From positions 1 through 34,063 of the forward strand of contig JAPSHM010000002.1 in the NCBI GenBank assembly GCA_031179845.1: a stretch of 34,063 nt of DNA. The letters run 5' to 3'. This document shows positions 7,384 to 17,246 of this stretch, in pieces. The DNA is from Pedobacter sp. (GTDB taxonomy: Bacteria > Bacteroidota > Bacteroidia > Sphingobacteriales > Sphingobacteriaceae). The notes below the pieces were generated by a model. That model worked only from the letters and a program-made list of their open reading frames with translations. It had not been told where the DNA came from and made no database searches. Position numbers and translations under genes: made by a program. Numbering within the stretch: position 1 is the stretch's first letter; each line of letters begins with the position of its first letter.

Positions 7384-8511
7384 TTACTTCAATAACGCTG
7401 TAAGCGAAACAACAGCCCAGGGTTGTTTATCCACATTGACAAACAGAGATAATTTAACGTCATCGGCCTGATCTACTTCTACTGTTCCGTGGCCACAAAA
7501 ATCTGCGTACTCGTAATGGGTAATAAATGGAGCTTCGGTTGTTAAAATATCTCTCCTTTGTTGGATCGTTGATGGAGAAAAATTAGGTTCAAGGTTTACC
7601 AAATCCTGGTGATAATGCTGCACTCCTTTGAGATGATCCTTGACTGGTGCATCTGGAGCAGAGATCACACTGCCAAAGGAAACCTGTACAAAATTTCCTT
7701 CATTGGTTTTCCTGGCTAGAATATTAGTTTTATGAATGTGTCCACACAAAACTATAGCCTGATGTTTACCAAGAAGATCAATCAGATCCGCCCGGTACGC
7801 CTTTTCGCCTGGCTTCCCAAAGACAGTCCATGTTGACCTCGAATTGAACGGAACAACAGGATAGTGGACACAGAAAAAAAGCAGTCTTTCTTTGTGTATA
7901 GCAAGGACAGTTTTCAGCCATTCAAGGCTCTCCACAGGCGTGAAACAATCAAAGAAAACAAAACGCGCATTATTATGAACAAAAGTCGTATTGGCCGTAT
8001 TCTGTTTCTTTTTGTGTTCAACAGTTTGCCAACTCAAGACGGTGCTCTTAAAGGTTTCGGGAGCCCCTGTTCCAGTGATGTCATGATTTCCTTTGATCAC
8101 AAAAAAGGGACGCTTAAGTTTTTGCGCTGCGATAAGAGCGATAAATTCCTTAGTTTGTGTTTGAGCTAGCGCTTCTGAACCACACAACCCTTCTACAAAA
8201 TCACCAAGCTGAAGGTAAAAATCAGCATTCAATGCCCGACCTTTTTCTTTCGACTCCTTCAACAATAAAGGAAGGTTCTCTGCAGTGATTCTCGAATAAT
8301 TTTTGATTTGACCGATATCGTTCGGGTACCTCACCTTCAGGTATTCCGGATCATGATGTTCTAGCTTATCAAAGTGTAAATCCCCGAGTAAAATAAAGTT
8401 GAAGTCGCTGCCGGGTGATGGGATAAAGTCGAAAGCTGAGGCTCCAAGAGGTAAAACAGCTGCCAGCATACCCGCAGCAGCAATAAATTTTCTTCTGTTA
8501 AGTGTTTCCAT
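7384..8511 (-). CDS. Calcineurin-like metallophosphoesterase with Tat-type signal peptide
   Basis: GDLHFD, QLGDFVEG, IKGNHD, HYPV, GHIH motifs all present; NRRKFIAAAG signal. Start at METLNRRKF (8511) preferred over the ORF-track start at 8541. Confidence 0.9.
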   Translation of the reverse strand: METLNRRKFIAAAGMLAAVLPLGASAFDFIPSPGSDFNFILLGDLHFDKLEHHDPEYLKVRYPNDIGQIKNYSRITAENLPLLLKESKEKGRALNADFYLQLGDFVEGLCGSEALAQTQTKEFIALIAAQKLKRPFFVIKGNHDITGTGAPETFKSTVLSWQTVEHKKKQNTANTTFVHNNARFVFFDCFTPVESLEWLKTVLAIHKERLLFFCVHYPVVPFNSRSTWTVFGKPGEKAYRADLIDLLGKHQAIVLCGHIHKTNILARKTNEGNFVQVSFGSVISAPDAPVKDHLKGVQHYHQDLVNLEPNFSPSTIQQRRDILTTEAPFITHYEYADFCGHGTVEVDQADDVKLSLFVNVDKQPWAVVSLTALLK

Positions 8512-8574
8512 ATTGAAATGAGTTTTAAAGCTTCCGGGCATTCCCAGGATGCTTTCGAGCGTGGTTATCTTTCT

Positions 8575-9627
8575 TTAATTTCCGACTTTGAACTGTTCAC
8601 GGGTAATGTCAAGGTAGGTTGTACCATATTCCTGGGCCGGTTCTAATGAGGTTCCTACCTGGAAATTGTTCCAGGAGTTAACAAGGACAATGCGTTTTGA
8701 GCCCATATTTCGTTTAGCAACATTACAGTAATCGGCATAAAATTGCTCACTTCGTTCAAGCGTATATAATTTGCTTGTCGGGGACATCACTTTATCATTG
8801 AAGCCAGGAAAAACGCAGGGAACAAAATCAACACTCCAGGTAGAGGTGGAATCTTTCCAGTTCTTCCAGTTTAAATCACTGAAGGATGGAAAAAACACAG
8901 ACCTGTCGTAATTGTCGGTAGACCAGTTGTTCAAATCTATTGCATCCATTGTCTTGATATTGGCTGCGTAGCGTTGTGGGGGAAGCCAGCCTGAATTGAT
9001 ATCACCAATGATATAAAGATCTACTCCTACTTCATTCATCGCTTGCCGAAGGGCGGGTATGACAGCCGAAAAATCGATACTTGATGAAGCGTTCGCGCTG
9101 ATATTAAGGGGAGAAAACAGCACCACGACCCTACCATCAATTTTATAGTAATACTCTTTATTAAAATGTGTAGAAGCGAGCAATTTAAATTCATCGATCA
9201 TTGTAGTTAGCTTAGTTCCGGTAAGCGGAGCGGCACTACTGGCGGAAAGGTGAGCAGTATTGTAATTGACCACCATTTTAACTTTGCTATTCCGACCGTT
9301 TATAAAGCTGTTTAAAAGGGGATCACCGGAAACAGGACCATTCCAGTTGAAGATAAAAAAGTCAAGCCCGGCTTGATCAGCCCAAATGCGGTGTTGCTCC
9401 ATGATATCTGGAGCAAGCGCACTGTACACACCCTTTAAAGGTGTATAAGTATACTTTTTTGCCCAGTCGCCAGCAGAATAATTATAATAAAATGCGCCTA
9501 CGTTAACATTTTCAGTAATCGGGACGTCTGGTATTTCGTAATCGAAGTTGGGAAGTTGAGGATCGTCTTCTTTACTACACGCGCTTATCAGCAGTGCGAA
9601 AGCCAAAACATATACAAGTATTTTCAT
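8575..9627 (-). CDS. GH99/GH71-like (endo-mannosidase-like) lipoprotein glycoside hydrolase
   Basis: Lipoprotein signal (LLISACSKEDD); VGAFYYNY, HRIWADQAGLDFFIFNWNGP, YYKIDGRVVVLFSP, VNSWNNFQVGTSLEPAQEYG resemble GH99-like proteins. Confidence 0.7.
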   Translation of the reverse strand: MKILVYVLAFALLISACSKEDDPQLPNFDYEIPDVPITENVNVGAFYYNYSAGDWAKKYTYTPLKGVYSALAPDIMEQHRIWADQAGLDFFIFNWNGPVSGDPLLNSFINGRNSKVKMVVNYNTAHLSASSAAPLTGTKLTTMIDEFKLLASTHFNKEYYYKIDGRVVVLFSPLNISANASSSIDFSAVIPALRQAMNEVGVDLYIIGDINSGWLPPQRYAANIKTMDAIDLNNWSTDNYDRSVFFPSFSDLNWKNWKDSTSTWSVDFVPCVFPGFNDKVMSPTSKLYTLERSEQFYADYCNVAKRNMGSKRIVLVNSWNNFQVGTSLEPAQEYGTTYLDITREQFKVGN

Positions 9628-9644: not shown

Positions 9645-11246
9645 TTAATACGGTAAATTCGGGTTCTTCCTGGTTGGCAACGCAAACCAAAGCTTTGTAA
9701 AGATGTTGTCATCTCCATTGAGCCATGTTGCTGCCTTTTGAACTTCAGCGCTATTCGTCTGCCGTTCATCAGTTGGATATAGTATCCGCTGCGGCATGTA
9801 AGCATAATTTCCATCGTAAGTTCCAAACTGCGGCTGAAACTCCAGCACCTGCGTACGACGCAATAAAGTCCATGCGTCTATACCTTGCATCGGAATGGCA
9901 AGCCAGTGCTGCATGGTTAATCGCTTGAAATTATCGCCTGCCGGGATATAGCTGGAGCAGATCTGTAGCCAGTCCTGGAATGCTGCCTGGCGACCAACGG
10001 TATCAGAAGCTGTGCTCCACTTTATTCCTGGTGTTTCTTTGTACTTTGTGGCCTGAGTTGCGCTCAGTCCGTACCGATTAAATGAAGCGTCTATTCCTTC
10101 ATAATAATATTTTTCGGGATTAGGATCGCCCCACCAGCCCTTCATTGCAGCCTCAGCTTTAAGAAAGCAGGATTCTGCATAGGAAATAAAGACATATTCA
10201 GCATCCGGCTTAAGAAACCGTTCACCAATTTGGGAGTAGTCTTCCTGTTTCAGACCCGTGTGAGGATTGATCTTTCCATCAGCAAACTCACCACCTCCAC
10301 CATAAGACACATTCTGACCGAAGAACTCACCTTTTTTCGGTCCCTTCTTAGCAGGCTGAGCATAAACGGTTAATCGAGGATCCTGATAGGGCAAAGTATG
10401 ATAGACCAATGATTCGCCAAGGACTGGAATGGTTGCCAAATTGGCTTTATAATTATACACTGCACGATCATAAAGCGGGCTCCAGGTATCGCTGGTCAGG
10501 CCGAAAGTAGCCGCAGCGCTTTCATCTTGCGCTTTAATCGTATTCGCTTCATCCTGGAATATTTCCTGAACAACCTTTTTGGCTGTTACTGGGTCACCGT
10601 TAGGAGAAGAGTTGGCAATGCGCATTGCAAGACGAAGTCGGAGTGTGTTTGCAAATTTCTTCCATTTCTGTACATCTCCCTTATAAACCCTATCCGCAGT
10701 CGCTGAAAACGTATCACCTGTCGGATCCAATTCGGCTGCAAGCACTTTGAGTTCATCCAGCAAAGAATAATAGATCTCTTCTTCTTTTTCATAGGGTACA
10801 GCCGGCTCCCCGGTTAAAGCGGCAGATTTAGGAATACCTCCCCAAATAGCTACTGTGTTAGAAAAAATATAAGCTTTCCAAATACGGGCAATCGCTACCC
10901 TATTTTTGTATAAAGGGTTATTGCTATACTTCAACTCAATTTGATGTACCGGCTGTAAACAATCGATATAGGTATTTTTCCAGTAGGTATTGTTGGTTTG
11001 GTTGTTATAGGTAAATCGCTGGAATTCTCCCTGAAAGCCGGAAAAATGCTGCGTATAATTGAAGAAAATTTCCCGGTTCATTGTTCCACCATAGAGATTC
11101 ATACTTTGAAAGATCGAGGTAGTGAACAAAAAATCAGGTTCAACAACAGTAGGATTATTGGGATTAGAATTTATTTCTTCAAATTCCTTAGTACATGACA
11201 TGAATAGGCATGTACATATTAAAGTGATCATCAGTTTAAGTTTCAT
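9645..11246 (-). CDS. SusD-like outer membrane lipoprotein (SusD-like_2 type)
   Basis: Lipoprotein signal (CLFMSCTKEFEEINSNPNNP), helical SusD-like repeat architecture, follows a SusC gene. Confidence 0.92.
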   Translation of the reverse strand: MKLKLMITLICTCLFMSCTKEFEEINSNPNNPTVVEPDFLFTTSIFQSMNLYGGTMNREIFFNYTQHFSGFQGEFQRFTYNNQTNNTYWKNTYIDCLQPVHQIELKYSNNPLYKNRVAIARIWKAYIFSNTVAIWGGIPKSAALTGEPAVPYEKEEEIYYSLLDELKVLAAELDPTGDTFSATADRVYKGDVQKWKKFANTLRLRLAMRIANSSPNGDPVTAKKVVQEIFQDEANTIKAQDESAAATFGLTSDTWSPLYDRAVYNYKANLATIPVLGESLVYHTLPYQDPRLTVYAQPAKKGPKKGEFFGQNVSYGGGGEFADGKINPHTGLKQEDYSQIGERFLKPDAEYVFISYAESCFLKAEAAMKGWWGDPNPEKYYYEGIDASFNRYGLSATQATKYKETPGIKWSTASDTVGRQAAFQDWLQICSSYIPAGDNFKRLTMQHWLAIPMQGIDAWTLLRRTQVLEFQPQFGTYDGNYAYMPQRILYPTDERQTNSAEVQKAATWLNGDDNIFTKLWFALPTRKNPNLPY

Positions 11247-11256
11247 TATCTTGGAA

Positions 11257-14200
11257 TTAAAATGTTAGCCTTACATTGAACCCGTAAAGTCTGTTTGGAG
11301 GTAAAGCTCCATTTTCGATACCTTGCCCGTTTCCAGAAGTTGAAGTGGCTTCAGGATCGATACCCTGTGGGGTGTTTTTATGAAGGATAGCTAGATTACG
11401 ACCTGTAACCGATACCCTTGCACCTTTTAAAAATGTGTTCTTCAGGAGTGTAGCAGGCATAGTATAGCCCAAGGTTACTTCCCGCAGTTTTATAAAGGAA
11501 GCATCATACATGACAAACTCCGCATAATTCGGTCTGGTATATTCGTAATTCTGAGGTGAAACAAACTTTGTGTTCTTTGTTCCATCCGCATAATAGGCGT
11601 CCCATTTTGCTCCACCACTCAGCTCAGCATCCGTTTCACCAAAAATGACTCTACTTCGGTAATAGTCGTCACGTCCAACAAGTGTCTCTGCATGTACCCC
11701 GTTGACCAGCATTCTCGACATAGTTCCAGAGTAAAGAACTCCTCCCTGTTTCACGTCAATAAGGAAGCCCAGGTCAAATTGTTTATAGGAGAAAGTATTG
11801 CTGAAACCTCCAATCCAATCAGGAGTGGCAGAACCATAAGCTTTATCATTATCTTTCGCCAATAAACCGCCACCATCTTCCAGAAGCATATTCCCGTTGG
11901 CATCACGTTGGACACCTAAGCCTCGTAGATGCGCATATGGTTTTCCAACCTCTGCATATACATAGATAAAACTGGAATTGTTATTTAACTGAAATCGTGA
12001 TATTCCGTCGAGCAATTCGACCACCTCTGAATTATTTTTTGAAAAGTTAATCCGACTTTGCCAGTTGAAGTTCCTGTTTTCGATGATGCGACCACTCAGA
12101 CCTGTTTCAATTCCCCAGTTCCTAATTTTACCCGCATTGTATAATCGTTGTTTGTAACCACTTGAACTTGGCAGTTGAGCAGTGATGATTTGATTTGTAG
12201 TCGCAGCAGAATACTGGGTAACATCAATGCTGATCCTGTTCTTCAACAACTTCAGATCTACACCCCATTCATAAGAACTGGTCTTTTCAGGTTTAAGATC
12301 AGGGTTATTCATTGTGGTATTAAGTGAAGCTCGTGTTGCACCGTCGAAAAAGCCATCAAATGAATAGGTTGACTCAAGGCGATACGGGTCCGTATCATTA
12401 CCGACCATTGCATACGAGGCCCGTAACTTAGCGAAACTCAACACATCGCTTTTTATGTTGAAAATATCACTAAGCACCAATGATGTACCGATTGAGGGAT
12501 AAAAGTAAGCGTTGTTCCTGCTCGGCAATGTGGAAGACCAATCGTTTCGGGCTGTTATATCTACAAATGCATAATTACGGTACCCAAGGGATACAGAACT
12601 ATAAATTGAATTGATGCGTTTCCTCCGAATGGTTTGACTTACTGTAGGATATTCTTTTGCATTTGAGAGATTGATCAAGCCAGGTTGGAGCAGGGAATTA
12701 ATTCGCGACTCCCTCCTTTCGAACGTAGATCCAAAACTGTTGGCACCTAACAATCCGACAAAGGAGAAGTCATTAAATTTCCTGTTAACTGTAAAGAATC
12801 CTTCCAGGTTGTAATTCATTTGTTTTGAATTGAAGGTGCGCATAAACCCATCAGGGTTGCTGGCAATAACTGACCCTATGTTGTTGAATTCATATCCCTC
12901 CCACCAATACATATCTGCTCCTAACCGGGCATTGAATTTTATCCATGGAGTAAGGTTAATTTCTGGATTAAAGGATGCAAGTAATCTATCCTTCACATCG
13001 CGATTTGGGTTTTCATTTATTGCCCAATATGGATTACTAAAATTTCTATGGGTGCCGATCTCCTTACCAGTTTCTTCGTCTTTATAAGGCATCAACTCAT
13101 CGAGATCTGTACTTCTGGCCATATGTGTATATAGGTTCGTCGGGTTCCTGCCATTGGAATTTGAATACTGTCTGTTGTTAACAATATCATGAATAAAATT
13201 CACCTTAGTATCAAACTTCAGCCATTTCGCCGGGGTATTCAACATTCGAAAATTTAGGGAATGTTTGTTATTCTTATTGAAATTTTCTACTACGCTTGTG
13301 CCCGAATAGTTTGTATAGGATAGCCGATAGGAATTATGCTCATTTCCACCTTCAACAGCAAGTGCATTTGTGAGAAGCGCGGCAGTGGAGTAAAAATCCT
13401 TCACATTATTCGGCTGTGGCAGGTACGGCTTAACTTCGCCATTTATGGCTACATAAGGTTGTCCTAACATTGGCGACCCCCAACTTCTATAGTTCTTTAC
13501 AGCTTGGGGAATGGTGTTGGTATTGTCGATATAGGAGGAAGTTCCAACACCATAGGTGTTTTGATATTCAGGAAATTCTGTTAGTTCCTGAAACATCAGG
13601 CTGGAATTCAAGGATACTTTGAACTTCCCCGATCCCTTTTTAGTAGTAATCAGGACTACCCCGTTCGCAGCCCTCGAACCGTATAATGCCGATGCATTCG
13701 GGCCCTTCAATACCTGGATATTTTCTACGTCTTCGGTATTAATGTCGGCCGCATTATTACCATAATCCAGGCTTCCTTCATCACCAGACGTATTATCGAT
13801 CGGCACACCATCCACTACAAAAAGAGGCTGATTATTGCCTGTGATAGAGCTATTTCCGCGGATGACTATACGTGCTGAGCCAGTGTTGAATACCGGCGGC
13901 ACGATCTGCACACCAGACACTTTCCCAGAAAGGCCGCTTATAAAATTAGGGCTTTTAGCTTCATTGATGGCGTTAACATCAACGCCTTGCTGACTATAGC
14001 TTAACGCTCTTACGTCACGCTTGATATTTAAGGCAGTAACGACCACCTCCGAAAGACTACTTGAATTGGCTATCATTCGAACGTTCAGTGAAGTTTGCTT
14101 TCCTACCCGAATCTCCTGGGTATTGAATCCGATATAGGCAAATTGTAATACCGTACCAGGATCAGAAACGGTTATCTGATATTCGCCGGAAGCGTTGGTA

Positions 14201-14652
14201 ACGCTGCCAGTGGAAGAATCTTTTACTCTGATACTAACGCCCGGAAGTACATCTCCATTTTCATCAGTGACCCGACCTGAAACCCGGACCTGGGAAGAAC
14301 TTTTAAACAATATCAGACTGTTATAAACCTCTTTATAGGTGATCCCGGTACCCTTGAGTAGATAAGTTAAAACATCCCCTGCTTGTGCATTTTGAAACTT
14401 TTTTGGGGATACTTGAAACCGATCTACGCCCAGGTAGATTCCGTCATAGGCGACCTGAATTTTTGATACTTGACTAAAGGCAGCCAAAGCATCACTTAAT
14501 TTTCCATTGGTGAAATTAATATCAATTCTTTTGGCAACTACCTGTGCCTTGGTATCAGCAGCCAACAAAAAATTGCTGCAAATTAAAACTGAACTGATTG
14601 CGATAAGTGAAATGTGCATAATTTCCCTGAGTAGCAATGCGCTTTTCTTCAT
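11257..14652 (-). CDS. SusC/RagA TonB-dependent transporter with N-terminal STN (signal transduction) domain
   Basis: Signal peptide; STN domain (FTNGKLSDALAAFSQVSKIQVAYDG...); carboxypeptidase-like domain; plug (GVQIVPPVFNTGSARIVIRGNSS, ALYGSRAANGVVLITTKKG); barrel to C-terminal NVRLTF. Confidence 0.96.
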   Translation of the reverse strand: MKKSALLLREIMHISLIAISSVLICSNFLLAADTKAQVVAKRIDINFTNGKLSDALAAFSQVSKIQVAYDGIYLGVDRFQVSPKKFQNAQAGDVLTYLLKGTGITYKEVYNSLILFKSSSQVRVSGRVTDENGDVLPGVSIRVKDSSTGSVTNASGEYQITVSDPGTVLQFAYIGFNTQEIRVGKQTSLNVRMIANSSSLSEVVVTALNIKRDVRALSYSQQGVDVNAINEAKSPNFISGLSGKVSGVQIVPPVFNTGSARIVIRGNSSITGNNQPLFVVDGVPIDNTSGDEGSLDYGNNAADINTEDVENIQVLKGPNASALYGSRAANGVVLITTKKGSGKFKVSLNSSLMFQELTEFPEYQNTYGVGTSSYIDNTNTIPQAVKNYRSWGSPMLGQPYVAINGEVKPYLPQPNNVKDFYSTAALLTNALAVEGGNEHNSYRLSYTNYSGTSVVENFNKNNKHSLNFRMLNTPAKWLKFDTKVNFIHDIVNNRQYSNSNGRNPTNLYTHMARSTDLDELMPYKDEETGKEIGTHRNFSNPYWAINENPNRDVKDRLLASFNPEINLTPWIKFNARLGADMYWWEGYEFNNIGSVIASNPDGFMRTFNSKQMNYNLEGFFTVNRKFNDFSFVGLLGANSFGSTFERRESRINSLLQPGLINLSNAKEYPTVSQTIRRKRINSIYSSVSLGYRNYAFVDITARNDWSSTLPSRNNAYFYPSIGTSLVLSDIFNIKSDVLSFAKLRASYAMVGNDTDPYRLESTYSFDGFFDGATRASLNTTMNNPDLKPEKTSSYEWGVDLKLLKNRISIDVTQYSAATTNQIITAQLPSSSGYKQRLYNAGKIRNWGIETGLSGRIIENRNFNWQSRINFSKNNSEVVELLDGISRFQLNNNSSFIYVYAEVGKPYAHLRGLGVQRDANGNMLLEDGGGLLAKDNDKAYGSATPDWIGGFSNTFSYKQFDLGFLIDVKQGGVLYSGTMSRMLVNGVHAETLVGRDDYYRSRVIFGETDAELSGGAKWDAYYADGTKNTKFVSPQNYEYTRPNYAEFVMYDASFIKLREVTLGYTMPATLLKNTFLKGARVSVTGRNLAILHKNTPQGIDPEATSTSGNGQGIENGALPPNRLYGFNVRLTF

Positions 14653-14659
14653 AAATTTG
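14652..14659 (+). promoter_or_regulatory. Bacteroidetes-type -7 element TAnnTTTG (TAAATTTG), candidate antisense RNA promoter
   Basis: Exact match to TAnnTTTG on the + strand, overlapping the complement of the susC start codon; no clear TTTG -33 box (weak CCTG at 14626-14629). Confidence 0.45.
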
Positions 14660-14664
14660 AATTC

Positions 14665-14730
14665 CTGTTTAATTGTGAAAGATTATTGGGATTGCCGGAA
14701 AGGTTGCGTCAACAGCCTTCCGGTTTTTTT
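14665..14730 (+). ncRNA. Candidate cis-antisense small RNA opposite the susC leader (approximate 5' end)
   Basis: Lies between a TAnnTTTG element and a U7 intrinsic terminator, antisense to the fecR-susC intergenic region of an ECF sigma PUL. Confidence 0.45.
14695..14730 (+). terminator. Intrinsic terminator oriented antisense to the PUL operon
   Basis: ccggaa(a)gg...ccttccgg stem, possible inner TTG/CAA extension, T7 at 14724-14730 on the + strand. Confidence 0.7.
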
Positions 14731-14738
14731 ATTAATAG

Positions 14739-15692
14739 TTAAAATATAGTTATTTCATAGTTTTCCCTCCTATATTGGTTGTTATGTATAGCACTAATGA
14801 GTTTCAAATAATATTCGAGCGGCTTGTCCTGATGTATTGCAAGTGAATAATGGTGTGCTGCAACTAAAGAGTTGCCAGCCAATAGCCGAATACTGAAGCG
14901 GTTATACATCAGTAATGCAAGTTCCGTGAACGAAGCATTATTAATTATAGTTGTTCCACTAATCCAATAATCAGCGGTAAATACTGAAGTATCGATCCGC
15001 ACAAGGTTTTTAGCGCCTTTTGCATAGGAGACCGACTGATCAGCGGATAATAGCTCGCCAATGGTATCATTTGCTAAACTTACTTTTACCCGACCTGTTT
15101 TTACATGCACCGACGAATAGCTAAGTTCTTTGTAGGCCTTTACGTTGAAGGATGTACCGTATACCTGTGTCGTTACAGTTGGTGTGATGACTCTAAATGG
15201 ACTTTCTGTATTCTTAGTCACCTTAAAAAAAGCTTCTCCGTTATCGAGGAAGATATCTCTCTTTTTAGTAAACCCTTGTGCATTGAATCTAATCTCAGAA
15301 CCGGAATTTATCCAAACTTCAGAGCGGTCAGGAAGAATGACCTTTTTTAATTTCCCGTTCCCCGCTTTGATTTTTTGATAGGCTATTGCTGTTTTAGTTT
15401 CCTCAATTTGGGGAGCGTATAATAGATAACACACGAAAGGTACAATGATCAAACTAGCTGCTATGGCATATGACCACCATAGATTTCTGCTGGTATTCTT
15501 TTTTAAATGAAGATTTAAGTTCAGACGAAGCTCAGCATATATCTGTTCCTTTTTATCTTTATTCTTTAAAGGAGGTATATTTTCTGAATCTCCAAAAGAA
15601 TCATACCAGGAATCTAATAGGGTTTGTTCCTCTGAATTCAATCGATTGTTCAGGTATTTTCCAAAAAGCTTTTTTAAATATTTTTTATTCAC
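14739..15692 (-). CDS. FecR family anti-sigma factor
   Basis: Central TM segment; LPDRSEVWINSGSEIRF, DIFLDNGEAFFKVTKNTESPFRVITPTVTTQVYGTSFNVKAY FecR motifs; DUF4974-like C-terminus. Confidence 0.95.
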   Translation of the reverse strand: MNKKYLKKLFGKYLNNRLNSEEQTLLDSWYDSFGDSENIPPLKNKDKKEQIYAELRLNLNLHLKKNTSRNLWWSYAIAASLIIVPFVCYLLYAPQIEETKTAIAYQKIKAGNGKLKKVILPDRSEVWINSGSEIRFNAQGFTKKRDIFLDNGEAFFKVTKNTESPFRVITPTVTTQVYGTSFNVKAYKELSYSSVHVKTGRVKVSLANDTIGELLSADQSVSYAKGAKNLVRIDTSVFTADYWISGTTIINNASFTELALLMYNRFSIRLLAGNSLVAAHHYSLAIHQDKPLEYYLKLISAIHNNQYRRENYEITIF

Positions 15693-15773
15693 ATCGACAG
15701 GATCTACACCTTATATACAGCTGCGATCTCCCGAGGTACTTTAAGCTAACCTTAACGTTGTGTCAATTAATTG

Positions 15774-16367
15774 TTAATAGAAATAACAACTCAAAACCAA
15801 CAGCACATATTCCGCATTGAATTTTTTCTTAAGCGCCGTGCGTAAACGATGTGAAGCTTCAGTAATGTTGTTTTTTATGGTCTGCTCTGCAAGATTGAAA
15901 TGTTTGGCAATTTCTTTTATTGAATAATTATTTTCCTTCATCAGATAAATCCTTTTCATTGACGTTGGAAGTTCCTTAATCCTGGAGTTTACAAAAATTT
16001 CCATTTCCGGGTACCTTTCTTCAAATCCAGCAATACTCTCCAATTCACCTGCGAATGCTAAAGTTTCGGATAAAGCATGCTTTCTTACCTTCTCTTTGTA
16101 GTAGAAGTTAATCACCCGGTTCTTTACAGATCTTAATAAGTAAAATTCTAAAGTTTCGGACTTCAACGATAGGTGTTCCCGACGATCCCATATGTGGATG
16201 AAAACATCCTGAACTATATCCTGAGCTTGCTGTTCATCCTTAATGCGACTATACGCCGCTGCATAAAGCTTTTGCCAGTAAGTATCAAAGATTTCATTGA
16301 AGACTTTGCTATCTCCTTCCTTTAACGACTGGAGCTTTAACTCGCTTATTTGGAGTAATGGTAACAT
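15774..16367 (-). CDS. RNA polymerase ECF-type sigma factor
   Basis: Region 2 (AYSRIKDEQQAQDIVQDVFIHIWDRR) and region 4 (YLMKENNYSIKEIAKHFNLAEQTIKNNITEA) motifs; upstream of fecR. Confidence 0.95.
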   Translation of the reverse strand: MLPLLQISELKLQSLKEGDSKVFNEIFDTYWQKLYAAAYSRIKDEQQAQDIVQDVFIHIWDRREHLSLKSETLEFYLLRSVKNRVINFYYKEKVRKHALSETLAFAGELESIAGFEERYPEMEIFVNSRIKELPTSMKRIYLMKENNYSIKEIAKHFNLAEQTIKNNITEASHRLRTALKKKFNAEYVLLVLSCYFY

Positions 16368-16447
16368 GCCGCAAAGCTAAAGGGCTAGTATTAATTAGGT
16401 ATTAAGACACGTGTTTATTATTCCTTTGTTCAATGGATGAGTTGGCT

Positions 16448-16489
16448 TTAACAAAGAAAAGGGCACCGTGGTGCCCTTTTCTTTGTTAA
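16448..16489 (-). terminator. Rho-independent terminator downstream of yebC
   Basis: Perfect inverted repeat with 20-bp arms around a 2-nt centre (ttaacaaagaaaagggcacc-gt-ggtgcccttttctttgttaa); T-rich 3' arm. Confidence 0.85.
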
Positions 16490-16520
16490 TATTTTATCAA
16501 TCTCAGCTAATCGCTTACGC

Positions 16521-17246
16521 TTAATCAGCCATGTTGTGATAAACGGCTTGAACATCATCGTCCTCTTCCAATTTATCAATCAACTTAAACACGTCTGCAA
16601 CCTGGTCTTCCGACACGGCTGTATGCGATAGGGCAATGCGTTCTAACTTTGCGCTTTTCATTTCCAGACCAAGGTCTTCTAATGTTTTTTGCATCTTCCC
16701 AAAATCTTCAAACGCGGTTTGTACCACTGCAATATCCTGACCTTCTTCATCTGCCTCCAAATATAATTCTTCTAAACCGGCATCGATAAGTTCAAACTCC
16801 AGTTCTTCCAGATCTCTTTCTCCTGGCAGGAACCTGAAGATCGACTTCCGGTTGAAGATAAAATCCAATGATCCTGTCTTACCCAAAGTACCGCCAGTTT
16901 TATTGAAATAGCTTCGCACGTTGGCTACTGTTCTATTGGTATTATCGGTTGCAGTTTCAATCAGGATGGCCACTCCATGTTGGGCATATCCTTCATAGAC
17001 ATACTCCTCATAACCATTTTCATCCTTATTCGAAGCACGTTTAATAGCGGCATCAACCCGATCTTTGGGCATATTCACCGCTTTCGCGTTCTGTATAGCG
17101 GTACGTAAACGTGAGTTGGTATCAGGACTTGCTCCACCGTCCTTCACGGCCATTACAATCTCCTTACCTATCCTGGTAAACTGCACAGCCATTTTGGCCC
17201 ACCGCTTAAATTTTCTTTCTTTTCTAAATTCAAATGCTCTTCCCAT
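16521..17246 (-). CDS. yebC: YebC/PmpR family (TACO1-like) regulatory protein
   Basis: MGRAFEFRKERK...FTRIGKEI, NMPKDRVDAAIKRAS, EGYAQHGVAILIETATDNTNRTVANVR, GGTLGKTGSLDFIF motifs. Confidence 0.95.
   Translation of the reverse strand: MGRAFEFRKERKFKRWAKMAVQFTRIGKEIVMAVKDGGASPDTNSRLRTAIQNAKAVNMPKDRVDAAIKRASNKDENGYEEYVYEGYAQHGVAILIETATDNTNRTVANVRSYFNKTGGTLGKTGSLDFIFNRKSIFRFLPGERDLEELEFELIDAGLEELYLEADEEGQDIAVVQTAFEDFGKMQKTLEDLGLEMKSAKLERIALSHTAVSEDQVADVFKLIDKLEEDDDVQAVYHNMAD

Follow-up and report, generated by a model that had tools for sequence, protein, structure and literature searches.

Genetic context of the fecR–susC gap

The question raised by this locus is whether the short region between an anti-sigma factor gene and a susC homologue, which is the susC leader on one strand, also harbours a gene for a small antisense RNA on the other. 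In the window (the whole 34,063-nt stretch of Pedobacter sp. DNA that was analysed), four genes follow one another on the minus strand in the order sigma–fecR–susC–susD. The ECF sigma factor gene (15774..16367) and the SusD-like gene (9645-11246) were recognised by profile matches, the anti-sigma factor gene fecR (14739..15692) by PF04773, and the susC homologue (11257..14652), the presumed target of the RNA, by the SusC/RagA profile TIGR04056 with 641.7 bits, above the cut-off. These gene coordinates leave positions 14653..14738 as the fecR–susC gap, that is, the minus-strand susC leader with which the predicted RNA would pair. DonS, an antisense RNA of the Don PUL of B. fragilis, is said to lie in the same ECF sigma/anti-sigma/susC/susD context and to repress susC. 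The sequence-only reading had drawn this parallel, and it holds for the location, the promoter, the terminator and the regulatory context. Sequence homology to DonS is not to be expected, since cis-antisense RNAs follow the sequence of their targets; in Rfam, none of 4227 families matched anywhere in the window at the gathering threshold.

A clear set of glycoside hydrolases or other polysaccharide-degrading enzymes was not seen among the genes downstream of the SusD-like gene, which makes the label "PUL" uncertain for this locus. The segment at the end of the susCD cluster (7384-9627, minus strand) contains an ORF with a weak, C-terminal-only WbsX/GH99 match and a metallophosphoesterase. At the other side of the operon, the stretch that separates a yebC-like gene from the gene for the ECF sigma factor contains a perfect inverted repeat of 19 bp with a T-rich tail (16448-16489), which is probably the yebC terminator.

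Antisense promoter and terminator in the gap

The exact TAnnTTTG element that had been noticed on the + strand of the gap was found as TAAATTTG at 14652..14659, where this putative antisense −7 element overlaps the susC start codon in such a way that the A of the ATG pairs with the first T of the box. After 35 nt (about 36 had been read before), the box is followed by an inverted repeat (14695-14723; CCGGAA-A-GGTTG..CAACAGCCTTCCGG) and seven T residues (14724-14730), which together form an intrinsic terminator on the + strand (14695..14730). Folding of the + strand hairpin gave −17.3 kcal/mol (z = −4.1), a stability that none of 200 shuffled sequences reached. Read along the minus strand, the repeat comes after A7 and before CAATCCC; having no U tract, it cannot serve the operon mRNA as an intrinsic terminator, as had been argued from the strand of the T tract.

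In Flavobacterium johnsoniae, the −7 element has the geometry T−12 A−11 ... G−5 (PMC6847099). TAAATTTG fits TAHHTTTG, and by the same geometry transcription would begin at 14664, 12 nt ahead of the susC ATG. When the T tract is taken as its end, the predicted antisense RNA is about 67 nt long (14664..14730, + strand). The previously proposed RNA of about 65 nt complementary to the susC leader is therefore retained in its essentials, except that the complementarity extends from −12 upwards and does not include the bases immediately before the ATG. As + strand RNA, the 74-nt segment 14660-14733, which spans the whole predicted transcript, folds with −23 kcal/mol (z = −2.9). The weakness of the −33 box, which had been raised as a caveat, carries little weight because a −33 element is scarcely evident in F. 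johnsoniae promoters (PMC6847099); in agreement with this, TTTG was not enriched 20–30 nt upstream of the box across fecR–susC gaps. A generic consensus scan of positions 13000-17000 detected no excess of terminator-like sites (4 vs. 3.4 expected), and such sigma-70/terminator scans are uninformative for this phylum. Consequently, the case rests on the combination of promoter and terminator and on the comparison with other loci.

Recurrence in other fecR–susC gaps

The best FecR match reached 38% identity, and the searches gave no close orthologue of the locus with which it could be aligned. For comparison, both strands of 91 non-redundant fecR–susC gaps from the same genome, the family and named genomes, most of them retrieved by similarity to this FecR, were scanned for hairpins followed by a T tract; the counts take no account of relatedness. 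With a threshold of −12 kcal/mol, a terminator was present on the antisense strand in 72 of the 91 gaps (79%) and on the sense strand in three. Dinucleotide-shuffled gaps yielded terminators in 3%, equal-length windows from the interior of fecR in 7% and from the interior of susC in 5%. In the genome to which the window belongs (75% complete), 17 of the 24 fecR–susC gaps contained an antisense terminator. A chance hairpin was ruled out by the shuffle, strand and gene-interior controls. Conservation of TAnnTTTG and of a U-tract terminator had been named in the sequence-only reading as what its proposal would stand or fall by; box and terminator co-occur in equivalent gaps across Sphingobacteriaceae, Flavobacteriaceae and Bacteroidales, and they do so on the antisense strand only.

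A second recurrent element lies at the 3′ end of fecR. In the window and in many relatives, AGGAGG occurs there (loci L002, L011, L015, L018, L022, L030, L032-L060 and others), mostly 35–83 nt upstream of the antisense terminator, and it is usually followed within 3–12 nt by ATG-NNN-stop; the motif may or may not share the frame of fecR. GGAGG was found in 46 of the 91 gaps (9.5 expected) and in all three reading frames, showing that conservation is at the level of the nucleotides and not of the protein. In the same genome, at least eight of the 11 matches to AGGAGGN{3,9}ATGNNNTAR were located at fecR 3′ ends, and at one further locus (contig 348, L188), where the fecR frame has decayed, AGGAGG and the A tract plus hairpin persist upstream of susC. 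According to PMC9976891, the ribosomes of this class do not recognise Shine-Dalgarno sequences, which makes the motif striking. We consider the AGGAGG region a likely ECF promoter region; a Shine-Dalgarno sequence with a mini-ORF is the candidate alternative. In the window, GGAGG enrichment and comparison with the ECF-dependent susC 5′ end of a Bacteroides species (PMC11501099) point to AGGAGGGAAAACTATGAAATAA (14750..14771, minus strand) as the candidate start region for ECF-dependent transcription of susC. If it is indeed the promoter, almost all of the susC leader would be covered by the antisense RNA, whose terminator would shield the sense promoter from the antisense polymerase.

Proposed mode of action

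The reading that we regard as probable is that the + strand of the fecR–susC gap is a DonS-like cis-antisense RNA gene restraining leaky susC expression. The RNA gene itself is well supported; its expression in this organism and the repression of susC are inferred. The housekeeping sigma factor would start transcription at the −7 element overlapping the susC start codon, and RNA polymerase would then cross the susC leader backwards and stop about 67 nt further on at the intrinsic terminator, just short of the expected start region of ECF-sigma-dependent susC transcription. The antisense RNA would pair perfectly with the susC leader, and the expression of susC would most likely be lowered by the blocking of its translation initiation region and/or by cleavage of the duplex. 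Antisense transcription is assumed to be constitutive, by which basal susC transcripts would be silenced and a threshold would be set; upon import of the substrate, FecR would release the ECF sigma factor and enough sense RNA would be made to overrun the antisense RNA. Pairing of FopS-10 at the initiation region of a susC blocks its translation in vitro (PMC11697453), which makes a mechanism based on leader pairing plausible. On the other hand, repression is not certain, because some of the antisense RNA–susC pairs of B. thetaiotaomicron correlate positively (PMC10994844); given these correlations and the statement that the mechanism of DonS is unknown (PMC11697453), polymerase collision or other roles may also have a part.

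It is possible, though we think it unlikely, that the act of transcription is what matters, either through collision of convergent polymerases or because the sense polymerase is blocked by the antisense one, and that the RNA is a by-product. With an ECF start inside the fecR 3′ end (PMC11501099), the facing promoters would be about 100 nt apart, and the box overlaps the start codon regardless of the leader sequence, both of which agree with interference. However, the 67-nt unit leaves scant room for collision, and in the loci examined the terminator stands between the antisense and the presumed ECF promoters, keeping the antisense polymerase off the latter.

Position of the antisense promoter

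An exact TAnnTTTG box was present within 110 nt upstream of the terminator in 59 of the 75 gaps with an antisense terminator at least as stable as −10 kcal/mol, where 8.5 were expected, and it was nearly absent from the sense strand of the gaps. The 59 promoter–terminator pairs predict RNAs with a median length of 94 nt and a range of 64–128 nt, which is bounded by the search window. In 45 of these pairs, the box overlapped the susC start codon as it does in the window, which puts the predicted start at exactly −12 relative to the ATG. Viewed from the sense strand, CAAAnnTATG was located exactly at the susC start codon in 50 of the 91 gaps. These figures bear on the notion that the hairpin is a guard terminator, which would stop stray antisense transcription running from susC toward fecR and the sense promoter with no dedicated RNA being made. 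Such a guard would also lie on the antisense strand, and it could account for the 16 of 75 terminator-bearing gaps that have no exact box. Against it stands the −7 element fixed at the start codon, at an equal distance from the ATG in most pairs, and we hold it to be quite improbable.

In flavobacterial loci (L068 and L093-L120, alignment A1), a conserved TTAGTTAA-type stretch was seen shortly before the susC start, within the 5′ half of the RNA predicted on the antisense strand. It might enhance translation of the sense mRNA or serve as a seed for pairing.

Strand in which the hairpin is maintained

The strand served by the hairpin was assessed on 73 candidate hairpins chosen strand-symmetrically, with Watson–Crick pairs only and the mean of both strands. 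They contained 90 G-U pairs when read as antisense RNA and 25 when read as sense RNA, and the more stable fold was the antisense one in 58 hairpins and the sense one in seven (Wilcoxon p about 1e-9). Shuffled gaps showed an asymmetry in the same direction (312 antisense vs. 185 sense G-U pairs; more stable fold 185 vs. 112), so that base composition accounts for only part of the strand bias. The hairpin is thus maintained as antisense RNA. The sequence-only reading had also suggested aligning the gaps of related loci and looking for covariation in the hairpin: the anatomy recurred, but the flavobacterial stems failed to align reliably and column covariation in that alignment was not used. Two compensatory pairs in a three-sequence set were given no weight, as they were matched by 55 of 500 shuffles. 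That the repeat serves as a sense-leader structure, controlling the stability or translation of susC mRNA, with the T tract being the complement of an A-rich spacer, seems very improbable to us: the whole sense leader folds too (−13.7 kcal/mol, z = −1.8), but the antisense RNA is favoured more strongly than in shuffled gaps by both its G-U pairs and its stability, and a sense structure predicts no antisense promoter at the start codon.

The loop sequence TGTTNNNGCA was common to 11 of the 75 antisense terminator hairpins and is a minority feature (L012, L017, L047, L055, L065, L081, L087, L089, L091, L094 and others). Its looser N2-4 form was present in 12 hairpins from distant genera, where about 0.4 were expected. 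The loop might be a kissing or a protein-binding loop.

Specificity and reach of the arrangement

As a control, 50 susC-like receptor genes that have no fecR in front of them were collected from the same genome and five relatives. Antisense terminators were found at three of the 50 and CAAAnnTATG at the start codon of none, which means that the box is not general to susC translation starts. It is scarcely credible, then, that CAAAnnTATG is a translation-initiation signal merely resembling an antisense promoter, since, although adenines at −3 and −6 aid initiation in F. johnsoniae, the C at −7 and the T at −1 lie outside the initiation signal of that organism, and with TAAATTTG the base at −3 is U, which its highly translated genes carry there less often (PMC6847099).

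In a sample drawn from the phylum through the FecR_C family, the arrangement was present in six of 27 loci, less frequently than in the set retrieved by FecR similarity, and in a class sample chosen by FecR it was present in four of 21; the start-codon box was seen in none of the 27 and none of the 21 loci. One genome, G335, had the arrangement at none of six loci. In many loci of the two samples, fecR is followed by another type of gene or by a very short gap, and such loci mostly lack the arrangement. With a stricter subset (strong SusC, gap of at least 60 nt, antisense terminator of −10 kcal/mol or better), the counts were 11/15 for the same genome, 26/28 for the family, 40/46 for the named genomes, 8/12 for the phylum sample and 2/2 for the class sample; the single genomes G288, G325 and G335 gave 6/13, 3/3 and 0/1, respectively. 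In Bacteroides acidifaciens, taken as the positive control, the strict subset had terminators at eight of nine loci and boxes at six of nine. The computational signature is hence present in a genus with experimentally known RNAs, and the window carries the same signature. Universality in the phylum was rejected on the basis of the phylum and class samples; the arrangement is widespread and common in Bacteroidia, not universal.

We see about an even chance that many ECF sigma/FecR–susC cassettes throughout the class Bacteroidia (Bacteroidales, Flavobacteriales, Sphingobacteriales) have long included the antisense gene as an integral third component. A housekeeping-sigma antisense promoter fused to the susC start codon and a terminator at the distal end of the leader would then make up a constitutive gate, to be overrun by ECF-driven transcription. 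If so, Bacteroidia of soil, marine and freshwater habitats would share this control, possibly with many copies per genome. CAAAnnTATG at the start codon together with an antisense terminator in the fecR–susC gap would be a predictive signature that needs no RNA-seq, and it would make the DonS mechanism testable in cultured relatives.

Comparison with known antisense RNAs

As far as the literature searched goes, PUL-associated antisense RNAs have so far been described in Bacteroides. In B. fragilis they occur at 15 PULs, according to PMC9723704, which cites Cao et al. 2016; in B. thetaiotaomicron 10 and later 32 were reported from RNA-seq, several of them confirmed by Northern analysis (PMC7366714, PMC10994844). 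The search, to which Cao et al. 2016 itself did not belong, returned no description of the DonS-like class in Sphingobacteriaceae.

In its anatomy, the predicted RNA resembles the DonS-like PUL antisense RNAs, and it would probably work as they do. It lies opposite the susC leader, with a TAnnTTTG antisense promoter and an antisense intrinsic terminator in a sigma/anti-sigma/susC/susD context. As portrayed in PMC7366714, PMC9723704 and PMC10994844, DonS and the other PUL antisense RNAs are likewise short, cis-antisense to the 5′ region of susC, transcribed from their own promoter and ended by an intrinsic terminator. Unlike DonS, the RNA predicted here belongs to a member of Sphingobacteriaceae, not to Bacteroides; the family assignment of the window was based on relative G174, whose gap (L040) is identical to that of Mucilaginibacter straminoryzae (L061). 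Its 67 nt are slightly below the reported 78–128 nt (PMC7366714), whereas the comparable loci, with 64–128 nt and a median of 94 nt, agree with that range. DonS-like RNAs are associated with loci for mucosa-derived glycans, and here the genes further downstream give no clear picture of a host-glycan PUL.

The antisense RNAs of B. thetaiotaomicron have the DonS-like orientation opposite susC, and the same box and terminator were seen in the Bacteroides control genome. Their expression is documented, although not always anti-correlated with susC, whereas that of the present RNA is predicted. FopS and GibS of B. thetaiotaomicron (PMC11697453) offer a model for the proposed action, as FopS represses a susC mRNA by pairing with its translation initiation region; these RNAs are trans-encoded and pair partially with several targets, in contrast to the cis-encoded RNA of this locus, which would pair perfectly with a single leader.
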